The translations under genes and the position numbers were made by a program. From Microvenator marinus (lineage in GTDB: Bacteria; Myxococcota_A; Bradymonadia; Bradymonadales; Bradymonadaceae): DNA of 64,000 bases. Below the pieces are notes generated by a model, which made no database searches, was not told the origin of the DNA, and saw nothing but the letters and a program-made list of their open reading frames with translations. Below are positions 4,229 to 14,783 of this stretch, piece by piece. Where the stretch lies: contig NZ_CP042467.1 of the NCBI RefSeq assembly GCF_007993755.1, positions 3,310,001-3,374,000 on the forward strand, read 5' to 3'. The stretch's first letter is position 1. Every line of letters begins with the position of its first letter.

Positions 4229-4624
4229 ATGCGATTGCGGAATTTCGCACTTGGGGCGTTCTTCTGCCTTCAGATCTGTCTACCTCTTTCTTACTACTTG
4301 GGGGACGATCCAAGCGACGAAAGGTTCGCCTGGAGGATGTTCTCTGCCACGCGTTTGTCGCAGTGCAAAACAGAGGTTATTGCAGCGCAACGTTCCGGGC
4401 CTGAAACCAGCCTAGATTCGCGCGAACATCTTCACGTGGCGTGGGTTACCAACATTGCTCGCAATCGCAAGAGAGTGATCGAGACCTATCTCGAACGCGT
4501 CTGCGACGATGGCTACTCGAGCGCAAAACTCACGAATAAGTGTGTGCTTCCGTCAAAAGAGAAGCAGTCTTTTGTCTATGAGATTGCGTGTGAGTCGCGG
4601 GAGTTCACGAGAGTGGGCCCATGA
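4229..4624 (+). CDS. Small membrane-anchored protein of unknown function, partner of HTTM protein
   Basis: This 131-aa protein starts at an ATG one base after the acetate kinase stop codon, which suggests translational coupling; the longer open frame from 4040 lies inside the kinase gene and is not used. It has one N-terminal hydrophobic helix (about residues 5-24) followed by a basic soluble region with three later cysteines, so it is probably anchored in the inner membrane. I do not recognise a family. Its stop overlaps the ATG of the HTTM-domain gene (ATGA), so the two are very likely produced together and may form a complex. Confidence 0.75.
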   Translation: MRLRNFALGAFFCLQICLPLSYYLGDDPSDERFAWRMFSATRLSQCKTEVIAAQRSGPETSLDSREHLHVAWVTNIARNRKRVIETYLERVCDDGYSSAKLTNKCVLPSKEKQSFVYEIACESREFTRVGP

Positions 4625-5886
4625 TCTTGGACTCAACTCAGGAAAAGGGGCGACTTGAATTCATCGCACGGGCCGTTCTGCTCATGCTGGCTTTCGATAT
4701 CTGGTGGAACGTATTGGCGCAAGCCGGGCGCTACGGGTTTAGAGACTTCAATGTCGCGCATTTTGCCTGGCTCGACCTTTTGCAGCCGATGCCCTCGCCG
4801 GGGCTCTACATTGGCGTGCTTCTCTTGGCGTCGGTCTTGGCAGTCTTTGGAGCCTTATTCTGGCGCACCACGACGAGTACTACGGCGATTGCCGGACTCT
4901 GGACATGGGCGTGGGCGTCTAGCCTTATGGATAGCTACCAACATCATTACTACCTGAGCCTTGTGTTGGTGGCTCTGATCGGATTTCCCAAGAAGAATGG
5001 CGAGAGCCAGTGGGGATTTGGCGCGCTCTGCGCGAGCACGGCCATCATGTACTTTTGGGCCGCTTTCGCAAAGGCGCTCCCTGATTGGCAAGGCGGCGCA
5101 GCTTTGCGGATCGTGGCCCGGGGGCGACGAGACGAAGTTGAGAGCCTATTCTCTTGGCTCGGCCTTGGTAACGACTTCGGCTGGCAATTGGCCTCGATTG
5201 GGGTGGTCTTGGTCCAGGTTCTGATCGGCGCGGCCTATCTCGGAGCCTGGCTTAGGGGCCGGCGCCCAACCCCCTCGCGCCTGCTTGATATACTCTGTGT
5301 GGCGGGAATGCTCGGTGGGCTCTCCTTTCATATTGGGGCGGAGTGGTTAGGCCTTAAGATTGGCTGGTTTAGCTACTATATGGTGGTCCTATCTGTCCTC
5401 GTTTTGGCACCGAACGGCATGTGGCAATTCCTCTGGGAAAAACTGCCCAAATGGAAAAACTTACCATTCAACGCGCCAGTCTCACTCTTGTTGGTGATGT
5501 TGGGGGCGCTAGCTATTGTGTGGGTCGATCTTCCTGGCGCGCTCGGTGTCGCAATTCTCATTGGGCTCGGTGGCGTGGTGTTGATGATCAGAAACCTTGA
5601 GCGCGCGATGAGCTATGCCGTGGGCATCTTTATGGCGGGAGGCCTGATGCTGCTTAGCTTTGAAGCCTCTGACACCCGTTGGGATTTTTATCGATTTAGT
5701 GGTGGTGACGCGAGCCGAGTCGCGGCACTGGTCAAGGATCCCACCGACAAGATCAAATATCTAGATGCCGCGATCTTCGCCTACCAAAAGGCCAATCAAT
5801 ATGCGCCGCCGGGAGAATCAAGGGAGAAGCAACTTCAGAGGGTCATCACCATTCGGGCACAAAAAAACGCGGACTTAGAAAACTAA
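4621..5886 (+). CDS. HTTM-domain multipass membrane protein (vitamin K-dependent carboxylase-like)
   Basis: This 421-aa protein has about nine to ten hydrophobic segments. Motifs of the HTTM (horizontally transferred transmembrane) family are visible: DSYQHHYYL (about residue 101), YFWAAFAK, a W-x-GGAA segment and LSFHIG followed by IGWFSYYM. The family includes vitamin K-dependent gamma-glutamyl carboxylases, but most bacterial members have unknown substrates, so no reaction is assigned. The C-terminal 60 residues are soluble and predicted helical. The gene overlaps its small membrane partner by 4 nt. Its stop codon lies inside a strong inverted repeat (5868-5893) that serves as terminator. 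Confidence 0.8.
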   Translation: MILDSTQEKGRLEFIARAVLLMLAFDIWWNVLAQAGRYGFRDFNVAHFAWLDLLQPMPSPGLYIGVLLLASVLAVFGALFWRTTTSTTAIAGLWTWAWASSLMDSYQHHYYLSLVLVALIGFPKKNGESQWGFGALCASTAIMYFWAAFAKALPDWQGGAALRIVARGRRDEVESLFSWLGLGNDFGWQLASIGVVLVQVLIGAAYLGAWLRGRRPTPSRLLDILCVAGMLGGLSFHIGAEWLGLKIGWFSYYMVVLSVLVLAPNGMWQFLWEKLPKWKNLPFNAPVSLLLVMLGALAIVWVDLPGALGVAILIGLGGVVLMIRNLERAMSYAVGIFMAGGLMLLSFEASDTRWDFYRFSGGDASRVAALVKDPTDKIKYLDAAIFAYQKANQYAPPGESREKQLQRVITIRAQKNADLEN

Positions 5887-5902: not shown

Positions 5903-5950
5903 TGGTCGGGGTGGCCAGATTCGAACTGACGACATCCTGCTCCCAAAGCA
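5903..5950. repeat. attL: displaced 3' part of tRNA-Pro
   Basis: These 48 bp are identical to 14707-14754. They run from the encoded CCA end through the T arm and variable region to the 5' strand of the anticodon stem. The sequence then diverges (TTTGCGCAAA, a 10-bp palindrome at 5951-5960), so no D arm or acceptor 5' strand follows and this copy cannot fold as a tRNA. Confidence 0.93.
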
Positions 5951-6069
5951 TTTGCGCAAATTGGGCGGACACACCCTAAGGCATTGGCGAGCAAGCCAAA
6001 GCCCAATAAAATGAAGGGGAACGATGAATCTCTATTGTGCGCAATGAAGCATGCTGATACTTTTTGGCA

Positions 6070-6089
6070 TGCAACCAACATGTAACCAG
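6070..6089. promoter_or_regulatory. Candidate integrase arm-type sites, left end
   Basis: Two direct copies of TGYAACCA (6070 and 6081) are 11 bp apart between attL and the integrase start. The same motif with the same 11-bp spacing and orientation occurs at 14628-14646 near attR. Paired copies near both ends are what arm-type integrase binding sites look like; binding itself is inferred. Confidence 0.5.
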
Positions 6090-6098
6090 TGGTGAATC

Positions 6099-7334
6099 AT
6101 GGGTGAAGTGGTCAAACTAAAAACGGGAAAGCCAGAAAAGCAAACGTATCGGCTCAACAAGAGTTTCGTAGATAAGGCCGAGAAACTTCCCAAGGACCGT
6201 GACTTCACCGCATATTTTGATGACCTGATTCCGGGCTTCCATTTGCGAGTTCTGACTTCCTGTAAGACCTTCTCTTACTGGTATCGCTCACCGATAGACC
6301 GCAGAGCTCGCGTAATGAAACTTGGTCGCCATGGTGACATTACTGCAACCGAAGCGCGCAAGAAGGCCGAGAAAGCCCGTGGGGCTGTTCTTGATGGCCG
6401 AGACCCACAAGAGCAGAAAGACCGCGCAAAGATGCGTTCCAAGACGTTTGCCGATATCGCGGACCAATGGCTAGAAGAATATGCGGAGCCGAGCCGTAAG
6501 ACCTGGAAGGAAGACAAGCGCCGACTTTCAAGCCCATACCTGAAACGACTTCAAAAGTTCCAGTTCCACGAGCACAACCGAGAGAAGCTTCAAGACCTTC
6601 TGGCTCTTGCCCACAAGAGCGCAAGTGAATCAACACCGGTGGAAGCCAATCGCATTGTGGAGCTTGTAAACCAAATGCTCAACACGGCATGCCGATACCG
6701 TTGGATCTCTTCGGTGTATCGCAACATTGCCGCGGACATTCAGAAGAACACCGAGAAGGGCCGAGAGGACTATCTGAGAGCCACTGAGTTTGCGAAGTTC
6801 GCAGATGTTGTAGGCACGCTTCCTAGAAAGCACCGGTGTTCCATTTGGTTTCTGGTGTTGACCGGATGCCGGTCTAAGTCCGAAGCCCTTGCACTGCTCA
6901 AGGCTGACGTTCACCTTGAAGCTGGTGTCTTCAAGTTCCGTGACACGAAGAACGCAACCGACCATGAGCTTCCAATAAGCACCGGAATCAAGACCATCTT
7001 CGAGATGATGCCGGAGCACCGAGGCGATACCGTCTTCATGGGAAAGGAATTGAGGCGACCTTTCGAGACCATCCGCGAAGCTGGCTTCATTGACCATATG
7101 ACACCACACGCTTTGCGTCACACGTTGCGAAGTCACGCAAGGTCTACGCTCAACATTAACTTGGAAGCTGTGGACTCAATCACGAATCACAAGTCAAACT
7201 ATGGAGCTGGTGCACGCTACGTTCATACGGATCCGGAAAGAGTTCTTGAGGCACTAGAAAAGTATCAAGCCTGGGTGTTTGACAAGGCCGGGATTGTCGA
7301 TTTTGGAGCCTATCTCAAGACGGGGAAACGATGA
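6099..7334 (+). CDS. int: Tyrosine recombinase/integrase of the satellite-like element
   Basis: This 411-aa protein has an N-terminal arm-binding-type region (DUF4102-like, YWYRSPIDRR...KLG about residues 60-80), a SAM-like core-binding domain (about 115-205) and a C-terminal catalytic domain. Catalytic residues are visible: Arg in TGCRSKSEAL, Lys in DTKN, the HALR box, His in ITNHK and Tyr in ARYVHT. It should catalyse site-specific integration into and, with a directionality factor, excision from the tRNA-Pro gene, using attL 150 bp upstream. The Arg motif has one residue more than the usual RxxE spacing. Its stop codon overlaps the ATG of the next gene (ATGA at 7331). ATG at 6099 is the first start after the attachment region. 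Confidence 0.93.
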   Translation: MGEVVKLKTGKPEKQTYRLNKSFVDKAEKLPKDRDFTAYFDDLIPGFHLRVLTSCKTFSYWYRSPIDRRARVMKLGRHGDITATEARKKAEKARGAVLDGRDPQEQKDRAKMRSKTFADIADQWLEEYAEPSRKTWKEDKRRLSSPYLKRLQKFQFHEHNREKLQDLLALAHKSASESTPVEANRIVELVNQMLNTACRYRWISSVYRNIAADIQKNTEKGREDYLRATEFAKFADVVGTLPRKHRCSIWFLVLTGCRSKSEALALLKADVHLEAGVFKFRDTKNATDHELPISTGIKTIFEMMPEHRGDTVFMGKELRRPFETIREAGFIDHMTPHALRHTLRSHARSTLNINLEAVDSITNHKSNYGAGARYVHTDPERVLEALEKYQAWVFDKAGIVDFGAYLKTGKR

Positions 7335-7909
7335 GTACGTTTCGTTTCTATGGGCCGCGAGTGCAATCTGAAGACGGGGAGGCGATGAGTCTCTTCATTG
7401 ACTTTACCGCCCAGGAGAGAAGATCCGTGCTCACACTTGCAACGTGTTTTGAGTCCTATGCAGATGGGATAGAAACAGGCCGGCGCGCTGACCGGATGCG
7501 CATGAAGACGGATAGAATTCTAAAGCTCGGAAATCGTAATTTTCTTTGGACCCGAATCATCCAACATCGTTGGAGGTATTCGAAGGATGGCAAAATTGAG
7601 CCGCATCCCTCCGCTTGGACCTGGGGAGATAACGAGGGCAGAGGAGCGTTCTTGACCTTCTTTCTCTATGATGAGCTTCCAAGTGCTCCCATAGCGCGCT
7701 CTATCGCCGCCGAACTAAGGCGCATTGAGCCGCTTCTCCCAAAGACAAGAGCAGGCCGACGGCGACGCTCCAAAGATGGGCTAGTTGCGCACAGGTTCAG
7801 ATCTTTGACCGAGAACACTCCGAAGCATACCGAGCAAGTAGACGTGCTAAAAGAACGGGGCTTCACAGATTGGGAAGCCCGCAAATGGGTTTATGAAACG
7901 GATTGGTGA
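7331..7909 (+). CDS. Hypothetical protein coupled to integrase
   Basis: This 192-aa protein has no family I recognise. It overlaps the integrase stop codon by 4 nt, so the two are translated together. It is a soluble protein with many aromatic residues, a basic stretch near residues 140-148 (RAGRRRRSK) and a C-terminal EARKWVYETDW segment. The basic patch would fit nucleic-acid binding, and the position would suit a recombination accessory factor, but neither is shown. It is followed by 138 bp without a gene. Confidence 0.7.
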   Translation: MSTFRFYGPRVQSEDGEAMSLFIDFTAQERRSVLTLATCFESYADGIETGRRADRMRMKTDRILKLGNRNFLWTRIIQHRWRYSKDGKIEPHPSAWTWGDNEGRGAFLTFFLYDELPSAPIARSIAAELRRIEPLLPKTRAGRRRRSKDGLVAHRFRSLTENTPKHTEQVDVLKERGFTDWEARKWVYETDW

Positions 7910-7916
7910 GTAAAGC

Positions 7917-7949
7917 GAAAGGCCCGGAGTTGCAGCTCCGAGCCCTTCA
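7917..7949 (+). terminator. Possible weak stem-loop after the integrase operon
   Basis: GGCCCGGAG and CTCCGAGCC at 7921-7944 can pair around a short loop, followed by CTTCAATGTGTTT, which is only weakly T-rich. It may end the int transcript; termination strength is uncertain. Confidence 0.3.
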
Positions 7950-8047
7950 ATGTGTTTAACTGGGTTGAGACCCAGCGCCCCACAAGCAACCCGCATTATA
8001 GCGGCATGGGCGTCTAGATCTCAACCCCAAAACCCAAAGGGGTTATT

Positions 8048-8467
8048 ATGAGGAAGATTGAAGATGTTCTGAAAGAGATCGGTGTGCGCTACGAATTCGA
8101 TGAATACGTGCCTTGCTACTACATCGAACCAAGATGGAGAGTCACCACCGACCGCGGAGCCCATATCTGGGGAACCTGGGATTGCGAGAAGAAAGCCGAT
8201 GAGGGCTATCGGGTCGCAAAGCGCCTCGGGCTTCCAAACATCTCCCAGACCATGATGGGGCTCGGGATTGCCGAGCTACAAGACGAGCGCTTCCTAATCT
8301 TTCATGCCGACGATGGGCTTCCCATCATTTCCGGTGACATTGGCGACGGGGAAACCATCCGCCGATTGGTTGAACAGAGCCTCAAGATGGATGCTCTTGA
8401 GTTTGACCAGTGGGCTGGTGATTACGCTGAACACTACTGCCAAGACAAAACCCTAACACGTCTCTAG
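8048..8467 (+). CDS. Hypothetical protein of the element
   Basis: This 139-aa acidic soluble protein starts at an ATG with AAAGGGG 6 nt upstream. The N-terminal third is rich in aromatic residues and the C-terminus in Asp/Glu. No known family or motif was recognised. It stands alone: 138 bp separate it from the integrase operon and 114 bp from the AlpA-like gene, so it probably has its own transcript or reads through. Position between int and alpA in satellites is often occupied by regulators, but the sequence shows no helix-turn-helix. Confidence 0.65.
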   Translation: MRKIEDVLKEIGVRYEFDEYVPCYYIEPRWRVTTDRGAHIWGTWDCEKKADEGYRVAKRLGLPNISQTMMGLGIAELQDERFLIFHADDGLPIISGDIGDGETIRRLVEQSLKMDALEFDQWAGDYAEHYCQDKTLTRL

Positions 8468-8581
8468 TTCGCTATTCATCTACACCTTGTCAGGTTTTCG
8501 AGGGTTTAAGGAAGCGTTGTTTCGCGCCTAGTTAAGACCTGATTAAATCTATGCGTGAACCATGAAGAGAGAGGAAACCCC

Positions 8582-8791
8582 ATGGAAGACAAAATGATGA
8601 CTATCGAAGAAGTGGCCAAGATGACCGCTCTAGATCCCAAGATTCTTTCCCGATACCGAACCACCGGTGAAGGGCCGGAGTTCATCCGACTCGGACACCG
8701 AACAATCCGGTATTGGCGCTCCGATGTTGTGAATTGGCTTAATGCCAACCGCTACCGGAGCACGTCTCAGTATGAAGTAGAGGAAGCCTAG
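8582..8791 (+). CDS. AlpA-like helix-turn-helix regulator/excisionase
   Basis: This 69-aa protein matches the small HTH_17/MerR-type fold of AlpA and excisionases: MTIEEVAKMTALDPKILSRY as first helix pair, then the wing FIRLGHRTIRYWRSDVVNWL. The ATG at 8582 is preferred because a purine-rich GAGAGAGGA site precedes it; the GTG at 8555 would add nine residues containing that site. In P4-type satellites and PICIs AlpA activates or controls integrase and excision and links the island to its helper phage. It lies between an orphan gene and the primase, with an inverted repeat just downstream. Confidence 0.8.
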   Translation: MEDKMMTIEEVAKMTALDPKILSRYRTTGEGPEFIRLGHRTIRYWRSDVVNWLNANRYRSTSQYEVEEA

Positions 8792-8800
8792 AAACACGAA

Positions 8801-8822
8801 AAGCCCGGCGGTAACCGGGCTT
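8801..8822. terminator. Inverted repeat after alpA-like gene
   Basis: An 8-bp perfect stem, AAGCCCGG with CCGGGCTT, encloses a 6-nt loop. A T-rich tract follows only on the minus strand (TTTTCGTGTTT when read in reverse), so it is a weak plus-strand terminator or an attenuator before the primase gene. Confidence 0.5.
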
Positions 8823-8896
8823 AACGCGTCGTCAGTACAGACGGGAAACGCTCCTGAAGTCTGCACTTGATGACCCAACAAGTCAAGAGAGTGCAT

Positions 8897-10225
8897 ATGG
8901 AATTATCTGAAAAAGCCCGACTCGAATACGGCGAGATTGAAGACTACCTTCGCTCCCAGGGCGTAGAGCTCAATCGGAACGGAATGGCATGTTGCCCTTT
9001 CCACGATGATAAGAACCCTTCATTCAGCGTGAAAGACCAGAGCTGGAACTGTTTTGCAGGTTGCGGAGGCGGAGGTCTCATTGAGCTTGTGGCCATGTTC
9101 CAAGACCGCAGCGCAAGAGAAATCTGTTCCGAGCTTGGGAAGAAGTATCCATCCTCGGGATACGAGAAGAAGGCCAAAGCGAAGCCCAAACCGAAGGCCA
9201 AAGCCCGAAAGTCACAACCGAAACCCGAGCCTCCGAAGCCAACACCGAAACCCGAGCCTCCGAAGCCAACACCGAAACCCGAGCCTCCGAAGCCAACACC
9301 GAAACCCGAGCCGAAAGAAAGGAAACTCGACCATCCAAGCCAAGAGCATCCGCATTTTCGCGGCTGGCGTTCAACGCTTCTTACTCGCATGTTTGATGCC
9401 GGAGTTCCCCCAACCAAACCCCATCGTGGAATTCCACCTGAACTGATGCAAGGCCGCGTTTGTGCGTTTACGTCCGAAGGTTGGGATGAGGCACGCAAAC
9501 AGGTAATCAAGGACTTAAAGCCCTACATTCCGTTCGATATCGAGCCTCTGATTCCCGAGGCATATCGAATCTCTAACAAGGTTGAAGATACCTGGCACAA
9601 GTACGAAAAGTTCCTCGTGTTCGCCTATTGGGATGTTGAGCACCACCACCACCCGTTAACGGGAAATGAAGAGCCGTGGGAATGCTTCTATGACCCGACA
9701 GACGAAACCGAAGTGCGTCGGCCGAAGTATCGAACACCTTATGACCCAGAATCCTCGGTGCCAGTGCGTGGGCTCGTGGAGCTCCGATTCAGAAACCTAA
9801 CCAAGGGCGCTCCAAAACAGGCCCGCTACACCCAAACCAAGCTATTCGGAGCCGAACGCATTCCGTTTCTGGCAAACCCCGTTCTGCTCCGACTTGCCAC
9901 CGAAGATGTCAATCAAAGCGCCAACACGCTCTATGTGTGCGAGGGCGAAATCGACACGTTGAGCGCATGGGCCATGGGCCGAGTCGCTATCGGAATCCCA
10001 GGAACGTCTTCATGGAATGATGATTGGTGCCGACCGTGGAAAGGATGCGGTCGTGTGGTTGTTCTGAGCGACCCCGACGAAGCTGGTGAGAAACTATGGA
10101 AACGCATTCAAAACGGATGCGTCAAGATTCACGGTCCAAGATGGACCCGTCAACGTCTACGCCGCCAATACAATGAGGGTGGCAGGGACATTAACGACCT
10201 ACTCCAAGGAGAGGAACATGTCTAA
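8897..10225 (+). CDS. CHC2 zinc-finger/Toprim DNA primase of the element
   Basis: The 442-aa protein starts with a CHC2-type zinc finger (CCPFHDD ... CFAGCGGGG, about residues 31-58) that recognises template DNA, followed by a Pro/Lys/Glu-rich linker of about 55 residues built on a PKPEPPKPT repeat, a central region that includes HHHH near residue 252, and a C-terminal Toprim fold with VCEGEID and SDPDEAGE metal-binding motifs. It should make RNA primers for element replication. ATG 8897 is chosen because AAGAGAG lies 6 nt upstream; TTG 8867 and ATG 8870 are alternatives. Its end overlaps the Rep-like ATPase by 8 nt, giving a primase-helicase pair like the P4 alpha functions split in two. Confidence 0.9.
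   Translation: MELSEKARLEYGEIEDYLRSQGVELNRNGMACCPFHDDKNPSFSVKDQSWNCFAGCGGGGLIELVAMFQDRSAREICSELGKKYPSSGYEKKAKAKPKPKAKARKSQPKPEPPKPTPKPEPPKPTPKPEPPKPTPKPEPKERKLDHPSQEHPHFRGWRSTLLTRMFDAGVPPTKPHRGIPPELMQGRVCAFTSEGWDEARKQVIKDLKPYIPFDIEPLIPEAYRISNKVEDTWHKYEKFLVFAYWDVEHHHHPLTGNEEPWECFYDPTDETEVRRPKYRTPYDPESSVPVRGLVELRFRNLTKGAPKQARYTQTKLFGAERIPFLANPVLLRLATEDVNQSANTLYVCEGEIDTLSAWAMGRVAIGIPGTSSWNDDWCRPWKGCGRVVVLSDPDEAGEKLWKRIQNGCVKIHGPRWTRQRLRRQYNEGGRDINDLLQGEEHV
9218..9310 (+). repeat. 27-bp tandem repeat in primase linker
   Basis: Three exact copies of a 27-bp unit (9218-9244, 9245-9271, 9272-9298) and a 12-bp partial copy encode the PKPEPPKPT linker repeat. Identity at the DNA level implies recent slippage-type expansion. 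Confidence 0.93.
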
Positions 10226-11828
10226 GTTTGAAAAAATGATGAAAGAGGAGGTTCCTGATATCCCGGAAGAGGTGAAAAGGTCGCGGCCATGGGTGAAACT
10301 CGAGGGCATTGATGCGTACGAGAAGGCAAACGTGATTCTCAAAGCATTGAGCCAGCATGCTGGTGAGCGCTTCTTCGTGAATCAAGCGTCCACCGGAATT
10401 GTCCGAATTAACGGACGGGACATCAAATCAATGGATAACCTCATTAGGTTTCAACACTGCATTCAGGGAGAAATGGTTCTCTATCAAGAGTCAGTTCAAG
10501 AGGTGAACAAGGAACTCCAAGTATCTCAGGTTCCAATCGATCTTCCACCCCAAACCCCAGTGCAGTCATTGATAGAAAGAGAGGATTGGCCGTATCTCGA
10601 CAAAGTGAAACGAATCGCACACTTTCCGATATTCGTCGGCAAAGACTTTCAGCTCTTCAATCGCGAAGGCTACGACGCAAAGACCCAGACCTACGGCATG
10701 GAAGGGATGTTGAGATTGGAAAAGATGACCGTTGAGGAAGCAAAGCACATCTTGATTCATAAGCTCCTCAAAGACGACGGTGGACTTGACCCTGATGACC
10801 CACCCGGATTCCCCTTCGTGGACAGCTCCGACTTGGCAAACGCGTTAGGAATGGCGCTAACACCGCTCGTGCTGCCGGCGATACGTGACCAGTACGACAA
10901 CGCCTGTGTTCCCATCTTCCTTGTTGATGCATCGAGCCCTGGCACCGGGAAGACCATTTTGGCCGAGTCTTTGTTGACGCCAGAACTCATCGCTAAATCC
11001 GTTCCCAAAAAAGAGGAAGAGTTCCAAAAGGTGATGGGGTCGATCATGGGTGAGAAGTTCCTAGACGTGCTTTTTTTCGACAATGTTGGCCAAGGCGAAA
11101 CGTTTGGCTATCCAACGCTTGCATCCATGACCACCCAGGCAGGTAGATTCTCAATGCGCAGGCTTGGCACCAATCAAATGATTGAGGGTCGGTTCTCGGG
11201 AATCGTTGTCGCCAACGGCAACAATCTACAAGTTGACGCGGATGCTAGACGTCGAACACTCTTGATTCAGCTTCACTCTTCCCATGAAGAACCTGAGAAG
11301 CGGGTCTGTAAAACCAACCCGAAGGCCTACGCTCAAGAGAACCGTCACATTATCCATTCGGCGTTGGTCACACTGGTTGAACACTGGAAGTCAAAGGGAA
11401 AGCCAAAGGGAAGCGTTGTCATGGGCTCCTTTGGCGAGTTCACTAGGGTAGTTGGAGGAATATTGGACGCGGCTGGCGTCCATGGGTTCGCAGGTAACGC
11501 CGACCGATTGAAGGAGCGTGTCAATGACCATGGGTGGGCGGAGTTCACCGCTATCATCGGTGCTGAGTTTGAAGCCGGAAATTTAAACCCAAACGGTCTT
11601 TCAGCCAAGAAGCTGTATGAGCATTGCGAGAACGCCGAGATTGCGACGCCAACTGACGTTCGAGGCGTTGGTGCACAGGGTTGGGCGAATTCATTTGGGG
11701 TGAGAGTTGGAGAACATCTCAGGGGACCAAGGAACATTGGCGGTTGGATGTGGGAGAATCTGGCCACTGAGACCAGCAAGAGAACATCCTACCGAGTCTC
11801 ACGCTATATTGCCCCCGATATGGAATGA
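10218..11828 (+). CDS. rep: Rep-like AAA+/SF3-type helicase ATPase of the element
   Basis: The 536-aa protein has a Walker A motif in SSPGTGKT (about residue 239), a Walker B strand LFFDNV (about residue 282), and an ANGNN sensor followed by an RRR arginine cluster, an arrangement found in phage and satellite replicative helicases. The C-terminal VVGGILDAAGVHGFAGN segment resembles the domain after the ATPase in such proteins. ATG 10218 is preferred over upstream starts because AAGGAGAGG precedes it. It overlaps the primase gene, and the iteron array begins 25 bp after its stop, as expected if the protein binds and melts its own origin. A plain phage-type primase-helicase is the alternative reading. 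Confidence 0.8.
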   Translation: MSKFEKMMKEEVPDIPEEVKRSRPWVKLEGIDAYEKANVILKALSQHAGERFFVNQASTGIVRINGRDIKSMDNLIRFQHCIQGEMVLYQESVQEVNKELQVSQVPIDLPPQTPVQSLIEREDWPYLDKVKRIAHFPIFVGKDFQLFNREGYDAKTQTYGMEGMLRLEKMTVEEAKHILIHKLLKDDGGLDPDDPPGFPFVDSSDLANALGMALTPLVLPAIRDQYDNACVPIFLVDASSPGTGKTILAESLLTPELIAKSVPKKEEEFQKVMGSIMGEKFLDVLFFDNVGQGETFGYPTLASMTTQAGRFSMRRLGTNQMIEGRFSGIVVANGNNLQVDADARRRTLLIQLHSSHEEPEKRVCKTNPKAYAQENRHIIHSALVTLVEHWKSKGKPKGSVVMGSFGEFTRVVGGILDAAGVHGFAGNADRLKERVNDHGWAEFTAIIGAEFEAGNLNPNGLSAKKLYEHCENAEIATPTDVRGVGAQGWANSFGVRVGEHLRGPRNIGGWMWENLATETSKRTSYRVSRYIAPDME

Positions 11829-11850
11829 AGAATTGTGCGCGAGATTTAAG

Positions 11851-11925
11851 AAAAGACCCGCAACTCCCGCAGAAAATATGCTTAAGCCCACTATTTCTAG
11901 CCTTGGGAGTTGCGGGTCTTTTTTT
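11851..11925. terminator. Long stem-loop after rep with T-tract
   Basis: An 18-bp perfect inverted repeat (11851-11868 with 11905-11922) encloses a 36-nt AT-rich loop and ends in seven T. It can terminate the primase-rep transcript. Each arm is made of two iteron copies, so it is also part of the origin-like array. Confidence 0.7.
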
Positions 11926-12087
11926 GAACTCCCGCAAACTCCCGCAAACTCCCGCAATAGCTCGGAACACGCTGCGGGTCTTTTGCGGGTCTTTTGCGGG
12001 TCTTCCAACAGACTCCCGATGGAAAGTCACCATACTTTTCCAACACTTAAGGCGTCACGTGCGGGAGTTGCGGGAGTTGCGGGTCTT
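11853..12087. repeat. Iteron array, candidate replication origin of the element
   Basis: The 420-bp gap between rep and the terS-like gene (11829-12248) holds twelve copies of a 9-bp element GCGGGWSTT in both orientations. Copies lie in the stem arms (11853, 11862, a degenerate one at 11903, 11912), three reversed copies with 10-bp period (11927, 11937, 11947), three copies with 11-bp period (11974, 11985, 11996) and three with 9-bp period (12061, 12070, 12079). A less GC-rich stretch (12005-12058) separates the last two groups. Iteron groups flanking such a stretch next to rep is the layout of satellite and plasmid origins. Confidence 0.75.
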
Positions 12088-12097
12088 TTCCGAGGTC

Positions 12098-12114
12098 AGC
12101 CAGCCAGCCAGCCA
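12098..12114. repeat. CAGC tetranucleotide run
   Basis: Four tandem copies of CAGC/CCAG follow the last iteron group. The rest of the gap to 12248 shows no gene and no other structure that I can support. Confidence 0.7.
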
Positions 12115-12248
12115 AAGAACCCCCCTACACCCACCCCTCGAATCATTGGCAACCGAAAGGGGCTTGACGATTAGGTCGTCCAAAAGATGCGTGCATTTTT
12201 CCTTTTTGATACAATCCCCAAAGAGAAAGACTAAACACTGAGATACCC

Positions 12249-12692
12249 ATGGGCGCACAACGTACCAAAAAGAAGCACGCATTCCTCACCCACTACAAAG
12301 ACCATGGAAGCGTTCCAAGAGCCGCCGAGTTTGCAGGCTATGCTCAACCCGGACCCTGCTACCGCTACCTTCGAACCGGTGATGATGGTGAATACCTTGA
12401 CCCAGTGGTTCGGGATATGCTCGGAACTCCGGAGCCGAACGACGAAGAGCCTCCGGCTATCCCTGCCAATGTTCTCAAGTTCGTGCCGAAGCCCGAAGAG
12501 GCGCTTGACCTCGAAGGCGTTCAGAAACTCTTGTGGACTATCGCAAGAGATCCCCTGGTCGCCGCAGGGCCGCGTGTTCAGGCAGCGAGTATCCTTCTCA
12601 AAGACTTGCGCGAACACGCCACCAACGACGAAGAGTTGTCACCCGAAGAAGTGGTGGAGAGCATTCGTAGAGCTCTTGGTGTGGCAGATTGA
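12249..12692 (+). CDS. Terminase small-subunit-like DNA-binding protein
   Basis: This 147-aa protein opens with a helix-turn-helix of the terminase small subunit type (AFLTHYKDHGSVPRAAEFAGY, residues about 14-34) and ends in a helical region (LLWTIARDPLVAAGPRVQAA...) of the kind that drives oligomerisation in TerS. In phages TerS picks the DNA to be packaged. There is no large subunit, portal or capsid gene here, so if real it would redirect a helper phage terminase to the element's DNA, as in PICIs. Other small HTH proteins of phages remain possible. The start ATG 12249 lacks a strong ribosome binding site. Confidence 0.6.
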   Translation: MGAQRTKKKHAFLTHYKDHGSVPRAAEFAGYAQPGPCYRYLRTGDDGEYLDPVVRDMLGTPEPNDEEPPAIPANVLKFVPKPEEALDLEGVQKLLWTIARDPLVAAGPRVQAASILLKDLREHATNDEELSPEEVVESIRRALGVAD

Positions 12693-12733
12693 CCAAAACT
12701 ATATAAACTTTCGCTTTGTGAGGGGTTTACCCC

Positions 12734-13108
12734 ATGTTTTCGGTTGCTAAGATCGGAGGCATGAAAAGCAAACAAATATGTTTGGAGCTAACAGATACAG
12801 ACCGCGGCATGCTTCGGACGCTTCGTCTAGTGATGGATGTAAAGGCAAACTCCAAGGTCATCCGAACGCTGATTAAAGAAGCTTATACTTCTGAGAATCC
12901 GGCTCCTAATGCAGTCACTCGCACCGATGGCTCCGGCAAGCCAACCACCTTGGTTCTGAGCGATTGGGACATTGGTCGCGTAGACTATCTTCAAACACAA
13001 CTTGGATGTTCAACCCGGACCGCTACGCTTAGGCAGCTTATCTGGGATGCATTCCTGTTTCTAACCTACGAGGCTACTTATGGGAAAACAAACAGAAAGG
13101 CAGCGTGA
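12734..13108 (+). CDS. Small protein with ribbon-helix-helix-like N-terminus
   Basis: This 124-aa protein has an ICLELTDTDRGMLRTLRLVM ... SKVIRTLIKEAY pattern near the N-terminus that resembles a ribbon-helix-helix DNA-binding fold, repeated loosely as LVLSDWDIGRVDYLQ ... ATLRQLIWDAF, so it may be a duplicated RHH. Start: ATG 12734 has AGGGG 8 nt upstream; ATG 12761 follows GGAGG by only one base and is less likely. The 12-bp palindrome GGGGTTTACCCC ends at the start codon and could be an operator. It overlaps the next gene by 29 nt. A regulator of the late cluster is plausible but unproven. Confidence 0.6.
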   Translation: MFSVAKIGGMKSKQICLELTDTDRGMLRTLRLVMDVKANSKVIRTLIKEAYTSENPAPNAVTRTDGSGKPTTLVLSDWDIGRVDYLQTQLGCSTRTATLRQLIWDAFLFLTYEATYGKTNRKAA

Positions 13109-13694
13109 AGCGTTGCTAAAAGAGATTGTCGCATTTCCGGGAACACGTGAGCGCGACTATGGGGAGCCTCCGGCCGACGTTGGGCCAGTTGGAAGCTTTC
13201 ACGCAAACTTCGTGGTTCATTACCGTGGCCTCATGGCATGGGATATTCAGGGCCGATGTGTACGCTTGAGCTTTGAATCCCCTTCGGCCGAGGTTGCTCC
13301 GGGGAGTAACTGTCTCCGGCTCACGGCGAAAGACCTTCCTGGCAAGGTTGCCGCTCACTCGCTCAGAGGAACGACCGACCTTCTCATGGTTTGGCTGGAA
13401 GATGGCCGGTGCTACGTCACAGACCTAAATCTTCCTCAAATGCCATTCCACCGACGGCACGCATGGGACTTGAGTCTTGAACAGGCAGAGTCAAACCTTG
13501 CCGAGATGGAAGCTTTTCGAGTCCGAAAGGCTAAATCTGAAACGGAAGGCAGGCTCAAACGAGCCGAGCAAATGCGAGAGTCTGCAAGGATTGCAGAACT
13601 CGAGGCCAAGATTGAAGCCGAAAAGCTCTTTAACGAGAAGGAACTCACCGAGGCACGTCTTAAAGTCCTCGAATCACTCAAGGTGACCACATGA
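13080..13694 (+). CDS. Hypothetical protein with C-terminal coiled coil
   Basis: The 204-aa protein overlaps the preceding gene by 29 nt and the following one by 4 nt. Residues 40-140 form a beta-rich region without a recognised family; residues 140-200 are a long charged helix (LEQAESNLAEMEAF..., ELEAKIEAEKLF) with heptad pattern, a probable coiled coil for oligomerisation. ATG 13080 has GAGG about 8 nt upstream. The VYALxWEDGRCY-like beta segment recurs loosely in the small protein at 14273-14626 (VQGNAYQLD), and both share a phrase of the type AYDVQG/AWDIQG-x-C/A, so the two may be distant relatives within the element. Confidence 0.65.
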   Translation: MGKQTERQREALLKEIVAFPGTRERDYGEPPADVGPVGSFHANFVVHYRGLMAWDIQGRCVRLSFESPSAEVAPGSNCLRLTAKDLPGKVAAHSLRGTTDLLMVWLEDGRCYVTDLNLPQMPFHRRHAWDLSLEQAESNLAEMEAFRVRKAKSETEGRLKRAEQMRESARIAELEAKIEAEKLFNEKELTEARLKVLESLKVTT

Positions 13695-13909
13695 ACACAC
13701 GAAAGCAGCTCCTTACACGCGCAATGGCAGTTCACCTGGAAACGCTTGCACAGGCCGAAAAGTTTGGTGTGGACGCTTCGAGCTATGACGTTACCAAGCT
13801 TCTACACACCAGCGAAAGCGGGAAGACTCTAGTTTTGATTGAGGCTACCGAGCGGCTATCTCGAAAGATTGCCCAACGTCGCCGCTATATCTCCAATTCG
13901 AAGAAATGA
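13691..13909 (+). CDS. Small hypothetical protein
   Basis: The 72-aa basic protein starts in an ATGA overlap with the coiled-coil gene. It is largely helical by composition and ends in a basic stretch (RKIAQRRRYISNSKK). No family is recognised. Overlap and direction place it in the same transcript as the two genes before it; a terminator lies about 90 bp downstream. Confidence 0.6.
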   Translation: MNTRKQLLTRAMAVHLETLAQAEKFGVDASSYDVTKLLHTSESGKTLVLIEATERLSRKIAQRRRYISNSKK

Positions 13910-14000
13910 TGCGCAAGAAATCAGGCAGTTTTCAATGTCCTTCTGCCTGAGAGTACGCGGTTCTTGAAGCCTGCTCGGGGGCGCATCTAGCAGGACGCTT

Positions 14001-14032
14001 GCCCGTGAGCGACAAAACACGGGCGTTTTTTT
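14001..14032 (+). terminator. Intrinsic terminator of the late small-gene cluster
   Basis: A 7-bp GC-rich stem, GCCCGTG with CACGGGC, encloses a 10-nt loop and is followed by GTTTTTTT. It ends only 10 bp before the next start codon. Confidence 0.85.
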
Positions 14033-14042
14033 ACTCAGTATC

Positions 14043-14276
14043 ATGGAAACGCAAAACATGGTTACCGACCCCACATTGTTCGATGAAATCCCGACGCATG
14101 AGCTCACAGTGGTTCTAGTCGCCAAACACATTCTGCTCAAAGCCCTGGCGAAACGTCTTGGCATTGAACCTATCAGCCAGCTTCCTAGAAGCACGTTTGC
14201 CTCAACTCTTGAGCCTTCGGAGGTTGAACAGCTTATGGATGAGATTGAGACCCTGAAGGCTCTTGTTGCGCAATGA
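14043..14276 (+). CDS. Small hypothetical protein
   Basis: This 77-aa acidic helical protein begins 10 bp after a strong terminator and has no clear ribosome binding site at ATG 14043; ATG 14058 is an alternative. No family is recognised. It overlaps the next gene by 4 nt (ATGA at 14273). Because the terminator sits in its leader, transcription needs either read-through or a promoter inside the preceding genes, so it may be expressed apart from the rest of the element. Confidence 0.55.
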   Translation: METQNMVTDPTLFDEIPTHELTVVLVAKHILLKALAKRLGIEPISQLPRSTFASTLEPSEVEQLMDEIETLKALVAQ

Positions 14277-14626
14277 AGCTCTATCCCGAACACGCTGTTA
14301 CCTTCGGACGTGTGTTGATTGCCTATGAGGGCTCCAGTGCTTACGTAGCACCGCTCTTCTACTCCAATGGCGGGCTTCACTCGCACCCAACGCATACCCG
14401 TTGGCAACCCGCCCCAAGCTATGACCTCAAAGATTCATGCGCCAAACTCATTCCCATGGGTGATGGTGCCTTAGCGTATGACGTGCAAGGCAACGCCTAC
14501 CAGCTCGACCACAATTCAGCGTCCCTTGTACCTCACCTTTCTTGGAATCCGGCCTTTGCTCGGCTCCGAGCTTCGGAAGAAAACAGGGCGCACATGGAAA
14601 AAATGAGAGAAATGTATCCAAAGTGA
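14273..14626 (+). CDS. Hypothetical protein at the right end of the element
   Basis: This 117-aa protein is the last gene before attR. It is beta-rich in the middle (GALAYDVQGNAYQLD) and ends in a charged helix (ASEENRAHMEKMREMY). The AYDVQG phrase and the following W/charged helix echo the 204-aa protein at 13080-13694 (AWDIQG, then a long helix), suggesting a shared fold. No function is assigned. The right-end position in islands is often used for accessory or helper-interfering genes. Confidence 0.6.
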   Translation: MKLYPEHAVTFGRVLIAYEGSSAYVAPLFYSNGGLHSHPTHTRWQPAPSYDLKDSCAKLIPMGDGALAYDVQGNAYQLDHNSASLVPHLSWNPAFARLRASEENRAHMEKMREMYPK

Positions 14627-14627
14627 C

Positions 14628-14646
14628 GCAACCAATGTGCAACCAA
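14628..14646. promoter_or_regulatory. Candidate integrase arm-type sites, right end
   Basis: Two GCAACCAA copies at 14628 and 14639 have the same 11-bp spacing and orientation as the pair beside attL at 6070-6089. Confidence 0.5.
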
Positions 14647-14660
14647 GGCTGTTTTCAGGC

Positions 14661-14696
14661 ACAAAAAAGCGGACCTAGCAATTAAGCTAAGTCCGC
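14661..14696 (-). terminator. Element-borne terminator for the rebuilt tRNA-Pro
   Basis: An 11-bp stem with one C/A mismatch (14669-14679 with 14686-14696) is followed on the minus strand by six T. It resembles the host terminator at 5861-5899 in stem sequence and distance from the tRNA, so the element supplies a replacement terminator along with the tRNA 3' end. Confidence 0.8.
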
Positions 14697-14706
14697 GATT
14701 TTGTTA

Positions 14707-14754
14707 TGGTCGGGGTGGCCAGATTCGAACTGACGACATCCTGCTCCCAAAGCA
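14707..14754. repeat. attR: 3' part of the intact tRNA-Pro
   Basis: Perfect 48-bp match to 5903-5950. Bases diverge immediately outside it on both sides (A versus T on the left, GGCGCG versus TTTGCG on the right). It restores the T arm and acceptor strand of the host tRNA gene. Confidence 0.93.
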
Positions 14755-14783
14755 GGCGCGCTACCAGGCTGCGCTACACCCCG
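14707..14783 (-). tRNA. tRNA-Pro (anticodon TGG)
   Basis: On the minus strand the sequence folds as a standard tRNA: 7-bp acceptor stem CGGGGTG/CACCCCG, D arm with AGCGCAGCCTGGTAGCGC, anticodon stem CCTGC/GCAGG with loop TTTGGGA giving TGG, T arm with GTTCGAATC, discriminator A and an encoded CCA. The 3' half from the CCA to the anticodon stem came with the integrated element. A promoter lies upstream at 14814-14842. Confidence 0.95.

Follow-up and report, generated by a model that had tools for sequence, protein, structure and literature searches.

A candidate phage satellite in a tRNA-Pro gene of Microvenator marinus and its sister island in tRNA-Ala

Introduction

Phage satellites are known mainly from Enterobacterales, Vibrio and Firmicutes, and a literature search found a single open-access paper, a review, in which the term "phage satellite" occurs together with "Myxococc". 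The chromosome of Microvenator marinus, a member of the Bradymonadales, carries an 8.8-kb island inserted in a tRNA-Pro(TGG) gene, at positions 5903-14754 of the 64-kb stretch of DNA analysed here (the window, 3310001-3374000 of the single-contig 5.85-Mb genome, to which all coordinates refer unless another locus is named). The question raised by this locus is whether the island is a phage satellite and, if so, how it relates to the satellite families already named. On balance, the gene content points to a satellite that belongs to a new phage-satellite family of restricted host range and has a predicted dependence on a helper, which is the best reading because a sister island exists and because distant islands carry a significant small terminase gene after the replicase. 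Of the new facts, the most useful are the existence of two sister islands and the conserved RNA predicted in both of them.

Results

The island and its sister

The island holds about twelve genes, all on the plus strand, between perfect 48-bp direct repeats (attL, 5903-5950; attR, 14707-14754) that equal the 3′ end of tRNA-Pro(TGG), the intact copy of which lies on the minus strand at 14707-14783. A weaker similarity, judged by eye in both copies, prolongs the repeats to about 5857 and 14660, across the terminator hairpin of the tRNA gene. Since both copies reach through this hairpin, insertion would restore the terminator as well as the tRNA, and the repeats place the integration at the 3′ end of the tRNA-Pro gene. 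The GC content is about 0.55-0.60 in the flanks and 0.50-0.55 in the interior. No empty tRNA-Pro site was recovered within the family, where no ortholog of the flanking gene (4621-5886) lies in a context that could be used.

The first gene encodes a 411-aa tyrosine integrase (6099-7334; Phage_integrase, PF00589, 5.6e-11; Arm-DNA-bind_3, 1.8e-14; phrog_1, 1.2e-39), and its end shares the sequence ATGA (7331-7334) with a gene for a 192-aa protein (7331-7909) that matches no sequence family. Further along lies a 78-aa AlpA-like helix-turn-helix (HTH) protein (8555-8791), which matches HTH_17 (PF12728, 1.5e-6) above the cut-off and the excisionase family phrog_66 (2.9e-10), with just 0.03 against the Phage_AlpA profile, and which is probably an excisionase or regulator. 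The first-pass annotation of this DNA had described a co-directional 8.8-kb island with perfect att repeats in tRNA-Pro, a full-length tyrosine integrase, an AlpA-like HTH protein, a CHC2 and Toprim primase, an ATPase with a Walker motif, an iteron array and no virion genes, and every one of these descriptions holds. That annotation mentioned neither a sister island nor the arm sites of the integrase, the gene that overlaps int or the block with the non-coding RNA.

The same annotation had proposed a search for the island at other loci, and a related copy of about 8.5 kb indeed occupies the tRNA-Ala(GGC) gene of the same chromosome (about 604154-612795; L003:6155-14796), flanked by a 95-bp att repeat with one mismatch. 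The two islands are syntenic for the primase (72% identity), the Rep protein (66%), a further HTH protein (73%) and the right-hand proteins o8 (about 50%), o9 (71%), o10 (70%) and o12 (46-47%), with o11 not conserved. The integrases, in contrast, share only 22% identity, the AlpA proteins differ, and the sister gene that overlaps int by 8 nt occupies the same place as the 7331-7909 gene and is unrelated to it. Each island also has two arm-site-like short repeats at both ends, of the TGCAACCAA type in tRNA-Pro and of the TTGCTACTA type in the sister; in the former, these putative integrase arm-type sites lie on the plus strand at 6070-6089 (TGCAACCAA at 6070-6078 and TGTAACCAG at 6081-6089) and recur near attR at 14627-14646 (GCAACCAA and TGCAACCAA). 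Since the integrase, the int-overlapping gene, AlpA and the arm sites all differ, the parts serving site-specific recombination have been exchanged together and the rest kept. The different tRNA target, the exchanged cassette with its att site and the retained core and iteron layout thus indicate that the island is mobile and modular. An intact sister pair in one finished chromosome is in effect a natural experiment, in which an exchangeable integration cassette can be set against the core genes.

Replication module and candidate origin

The replication module consists of two genes. The primase (8867-10225) matches CHC2 (1.2e-9) and Toprim_2 (6.7e-6), and its TTG start is taken from the open reading frame (ORF) list, so that the true start may be later. 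Within the primase gene, 27-nt tandem repeats at 9180-9314 encode a Pro/Lys-rich linker, the length of which is unlike that in the sister. Rep (10218-11828; 536 aa) is a helicase-like AAA+ ATPase resembling superfamily 3, with a Walker A motif (GTGKT), and in tblastn searches it matches replicases of phages and of small plasmids, among them plasmids of Streptomyces, Saccharopolyspora and others. Apart from the sister copy only distant relatives were found: of the 284 genomes sampled, 45 besides this one have homologues, with 25-36% identity and in varying contexts.

The 420 bp that separate Rep from the following HTH gene contain 12 copies of TGCGGG/CCCGCA, against 0.28 expected (Poisson probability about 3e-16). 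These iterons, at 11850-12090, are arranged in fixed blocks and orientations, and in the sister their number and nearly all of the orientation blocks are kept with the adjoining bases changed. A layout that persists despite changed neighbouring bases is as expected of a bound origin, and the segment is probably the replication origin of the island.

A conserved non-coding block

The best-conserved DNA between the two islands is the non-coding block at 7914-8050, which is 90% identical over its full length and 95% over 138 bp, the remaining aligned segments showing 50-74% identity. On its minus strand lies a sigma70-type promoter, TTGAGA-N18-TATAAT (7995-8024; 11/12 match), from which the start of a predicted non-coding RNA of about 80 nt is derived (7908-7988, minus strand). 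The transcript would fold into two hairpins, an invariant one of 7 bp (CUGGGU-CUCA-ACCCAG) and a terminator-like one of 14 bp, with z-scores of -5.5 and -4.5. In the terminator-like stem every difference from the sister preserves pairing, two of them through changes on both sides; with two sequences a shuffle test of this pairing is powerless, and shifted registers lose the pairing. No Rfam family matches the block above threshold, and a search of 57 genomes from the class finds it in these two islands only. Because the predicted RNA runs opposite to the leader of the o3-AlpA-primase-Rep operon, it is most naturally read as an antisense or immunity RNA, and the region probably encodes a small regulatory RNA. 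RNA-based immunity is known from P4, and the conserved block makes RNA silencing of a satellite outside the P4 group testable.

Alternatively, the block may be a DNA site, such as an operator, a pac site or a recombination site, its identity stemming from recent gene conversion between the islands and no RNA gene being involved. The block sits where the exchanged left module ends and contains a 21-nt dyad, and both islands reside on one chromosome, all of which would suit such an explanation. It would, however, leave aside the near-perfect promoter, the stability of the predicted hairpins and the fully preserved pairing of the terminator stem, and is considered possible at a distinctly lower level of confidence.

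The terminase candidate and related loci

Directly after the iterons, behind a conserved leader or promoter block (12135-12240, plus strand; TTTTTGATACAAT), lies the gene for the 147-aa HTH protein (12249-12692). Its sequence RTKKKHAFLTHYKDHGSVPRAAEFAGY resembles the N-termini of small terminase subunits (TerS), and a pairwise profile comparison with real TerS proteins gives P values of 0.002-0.003 for the N-terminal HTH alone. For the sister protein the top PHROG match is phrog_4044, a terminase small subunit family (E = 0.012), followed by another TerS family at 0.5. Among the 284 genomes the HTH protein and o9 are found in their own genome only, two weak matches to the HTH protein falling within large, unrelated-looking frames (one of which was checked), and Rep, the HTH protein and o9 have no close relatives in IMG/VR or in GTDB genome contigs.

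Two loci in other genomes of the phylum show a related order with a significant TerS. The first, found via phrog_4044 in a genome of the same class (L164:5083-15260; G038:C415), encodes an integrase (7.2e-12), an HTH protein, a primase/helicase (DUF5906, 2.2e-12), then a 450-bp gap with iteron-like direct and inverted GGTCGGC repeats, a TerS (phrog_4044, 1.6e-25) and a coiled-coil-like protein, and further on a sigma factor as well as a protein with the helical domain of a hydroxymethyl-dU (5-hmdU) DNA kinase. In the second (L083:7005-11110; G260:C133), HTH_17, a Rep homologue and a Terminase_2 TerS (1.5e-29) follow in succession. A large terminase subunit (TerL) is absent from both contigs by phrog_2, a model that does detect those of another genome of the phylum, in which a prophage (L088; G090:C39:16001-35000) combines a Rep homologue with TerL and a portal gene. 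From its presence inside this prophage, the replicase appears to circulate in phages. L164 and L083 are candidate satellites, yet they show that an order in which the replicase is followed at once by the gene for a small terminase subunit, without one for the large subunit, recurs in the phylum. Such islands suggest that satellites have been overlooked in these bacteria.

Two further observations concern insertion sites: L164 adjoins a tRNA-Arg-like sequence with an insertion, and another compact element (L042:5803-12573; G009:C59) lies at tRNA-Pro(CGG) and encodes, besides a Rep homologue, an integrase, a Cro/CI-like repressor and a family A DNA polymerase.

Discussion

Weighing the satellite reading

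The first-pass annotation proposed a phage satellite, and the anatomy on which it relied stands: att sites, integrase, AlpA-like protein, primase, Rep and iterons are present, and Pfam and PHROGs scans of the ORFs of both islands gave no match to virion, lytic, relaxase, FtsK-like or conjugation families; PADLOC found no defence genes. The top PHROG family of the sister HTH protein is moreover the same to which the TerS of L164 belongs. Several points nevertheless weigh against a satellite. The HTH protein of the window has no Pfam, PHROG or NCBIfam match and no TerS model is significant for it; against a profile built on 30 Terminase_2 proteins of viral type it scores as a shuffled sequence does, and phrog_4044 gives weak matches in 127 of the 284 genomes at E<=0.1. 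The conserved right-hand core proteins are orphans, and the island, at 8.8 kb, is smaller than the 12-15 kb of phage-inducible chromosomal islands (PICIs). Nor did the models tried reveal a helper: the terminase and HK97-type capsid models PF03354, PF17289 and PF05065 have no match in the own genome, where phrog_2, positive in 13 of 14 control genomes, gives weak matches only. No terminase or HK97-type capsid exceeded the background, so these searches gave no resident helper; a virulent phage may take that role, or the helper may be absent. With the positional evidence from the other islands included, the HTH protein is perhaps a TerS, at an estimate slightly above an even chance.

Much of the same evidence could be read as an integrative plasmid-like element, which would integrate at and excise from a tRNA gene, start its replication at the iterons by means of the primase and Rep that it encodes, use its HTH and ribbon-helix-helix proteins for copy number or partition, and spread by natural uptake or an unknown conjugative system. 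The Rep homologues in small plasmids, the TerS match that falls short of significance and the failure to find a helper with the models tried would all agree with this, as would the antisense-type RNA beside the replication operon, an arrangement typical of plasmid copy control. On the other hand, no relaxase, FtsK-like or conjugation family appeared in the island scans, the related orders in L164 and L083 hold a real TerS without TerL, and the AlpA-type excisionase and int-overlapping gene fit satellites; an element of this plasmid-like kind is thus regarded as rather unlikely. A prophage that decayed by losing its structural genes is very improbable. The integrase, primase and Rep families do occur in phages, and L088 has a Rep homologue within a real prophage, but neither island retains virion gene remnants, and the occurrence of two islands in different tRNA genes, both with intact genes and alike in their compact gene set and iteron layout, speaks for a unit that is being maintained and against decay.

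Relation to known families

The island appears to work most like a PICI- or PICMI-type satellite, although it fits no named family. The nearest published layout is that of the phage-inducible chromosomal minimalist island (PICMI) of Vibrionaceae, which averages 6.7 kb, is marked by integration at fis, has never been found twice in one genome, and commonly but not universally carries iolg, a gene that ATGA-overlaps int and is needed for excision (PMC10803314). The island shares the order of integrase, ATGA int-overlapping gene (the positional counterpart of iolg), AlpA and primase, and the lack of virion genes. It differs in lying at tRNA-Pro, and its sister at tRNA-Ala, instead of fis, in its host outside Vibrionaceae, in the two copies per genome, in separate CHC2 primase and Rep genes, and in the additional TerS candidate and right-hand module; the PICMI primase families DUF3987 and DUF5906 are not significantly matched, DUF5906 appearing just in the sister Rep and below the cut-off (E=0.005).

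PICIs are defined by an integrase, a replication module and a master regulator, no structural or lytic genes, a size of around 12-15 kb, att sites that prophages never use, and induction and packaging by a helper phage (PMC6092414). The likeness to PICIs proposed in the first-pass annotation stands in part when the PICIs of Gram-negative bacteria are compared: these, too, have an integrase, a regulator of the AlpA type and a replication module that includes an origin, lack structural genes and sometimes carry terS, whereas both islands are shorter, only genes of the Int/AlpA class are homologous, and terS is a candidate. The proposed P4 likeness is limited to integrase, AlpA and primase/helicase replication. 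P4-like satellites have the components psu, sid, delta and epsilon (PMC8628076), for which no Pfam or PHROG match was found, and the island encodes its primase and helicase on separate genes. Capsid-forming PICIs (cfPICIs) bring their own genes for capsid and packaging, TerL among them, and the scans found no such genes in either island. Actinobacterial integrative plasmids share the Rep homologue, integration and autonomous replication; the island, in contrast, has no transfer gene and shows a satellite-type AlpA and a TerS-type order. Since the defining genes of P4 and cfPICI are not found, and the fis site and the one-per-genome rule of PICMI do not apply, the island is placed in no named family.

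A model of the life cycle

In the resting state, the minus-strand RNA of about 80 nt, transcribed from the promoter at 8024-7995, would damp the o3-AlpA-primase-Rep operon. On infection by a helper, AlpA, perhaps aided by the int-overlapping gene, would serve as excisionase and the integrase would release a circle, which Rep, bound to the 12 iterons, would replicate together with the primase. The HTH protein, as small terminase subunit, would mark the island DNA and recruit the large terminase of the helper, the conserved right-hand genes o8-o12 would regulate or redirect the helper, and the 8.8-kb DNA would enter capsids of the helper that are small or, if it is packaged as concatemers, of full size. 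A more far-reaching model, which is tentative, would make the antisense RNA switch, primase, Rep, iterons, TerS-like protein and orphan helper-interaction module the conserved core of a new Bradymonadales-type satellite family, joined to an exchanged cassette of integrase, int-overlapping gene and AlpA that brings it into different tRNA genes, with the nearly identical RNA of the two islands providing common silencing or cross-immunity.

Remaining genes of the island

Between the int-overlapping gene and AlpA lies o3 (8048-8467; 139 aa), the product of which has no assigned function; its sister (L003:8306-8491) has an in-frame internal deletion that fuses the first 8 codons to the C-terminal part. 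In the right-hand module, o8 (12761-13108) gives weak profile matches only and is probably a double ribbon-helix-helix DNA-binding protein. It is followed by o9 (13080-13694; 204 aa), o10 (13691-13909; 72 aa), o11 (14043-14276; 77 aa) and o12 (14273-14626; 117 aa); a paralogous relation between o9 and o12 was considered and is not supported. Structure predictions from two-sequence alignments gave a mean predicted local distance difference test score (pLDDT) of 51 for the HTH protein and 50 for o9 and were not used for a fold search. The N-terminal part of o9 is predicted with low confidence to be beta-rich, and the confident part of the two models is the long C-terminal helix of o9 (residues 133-202).

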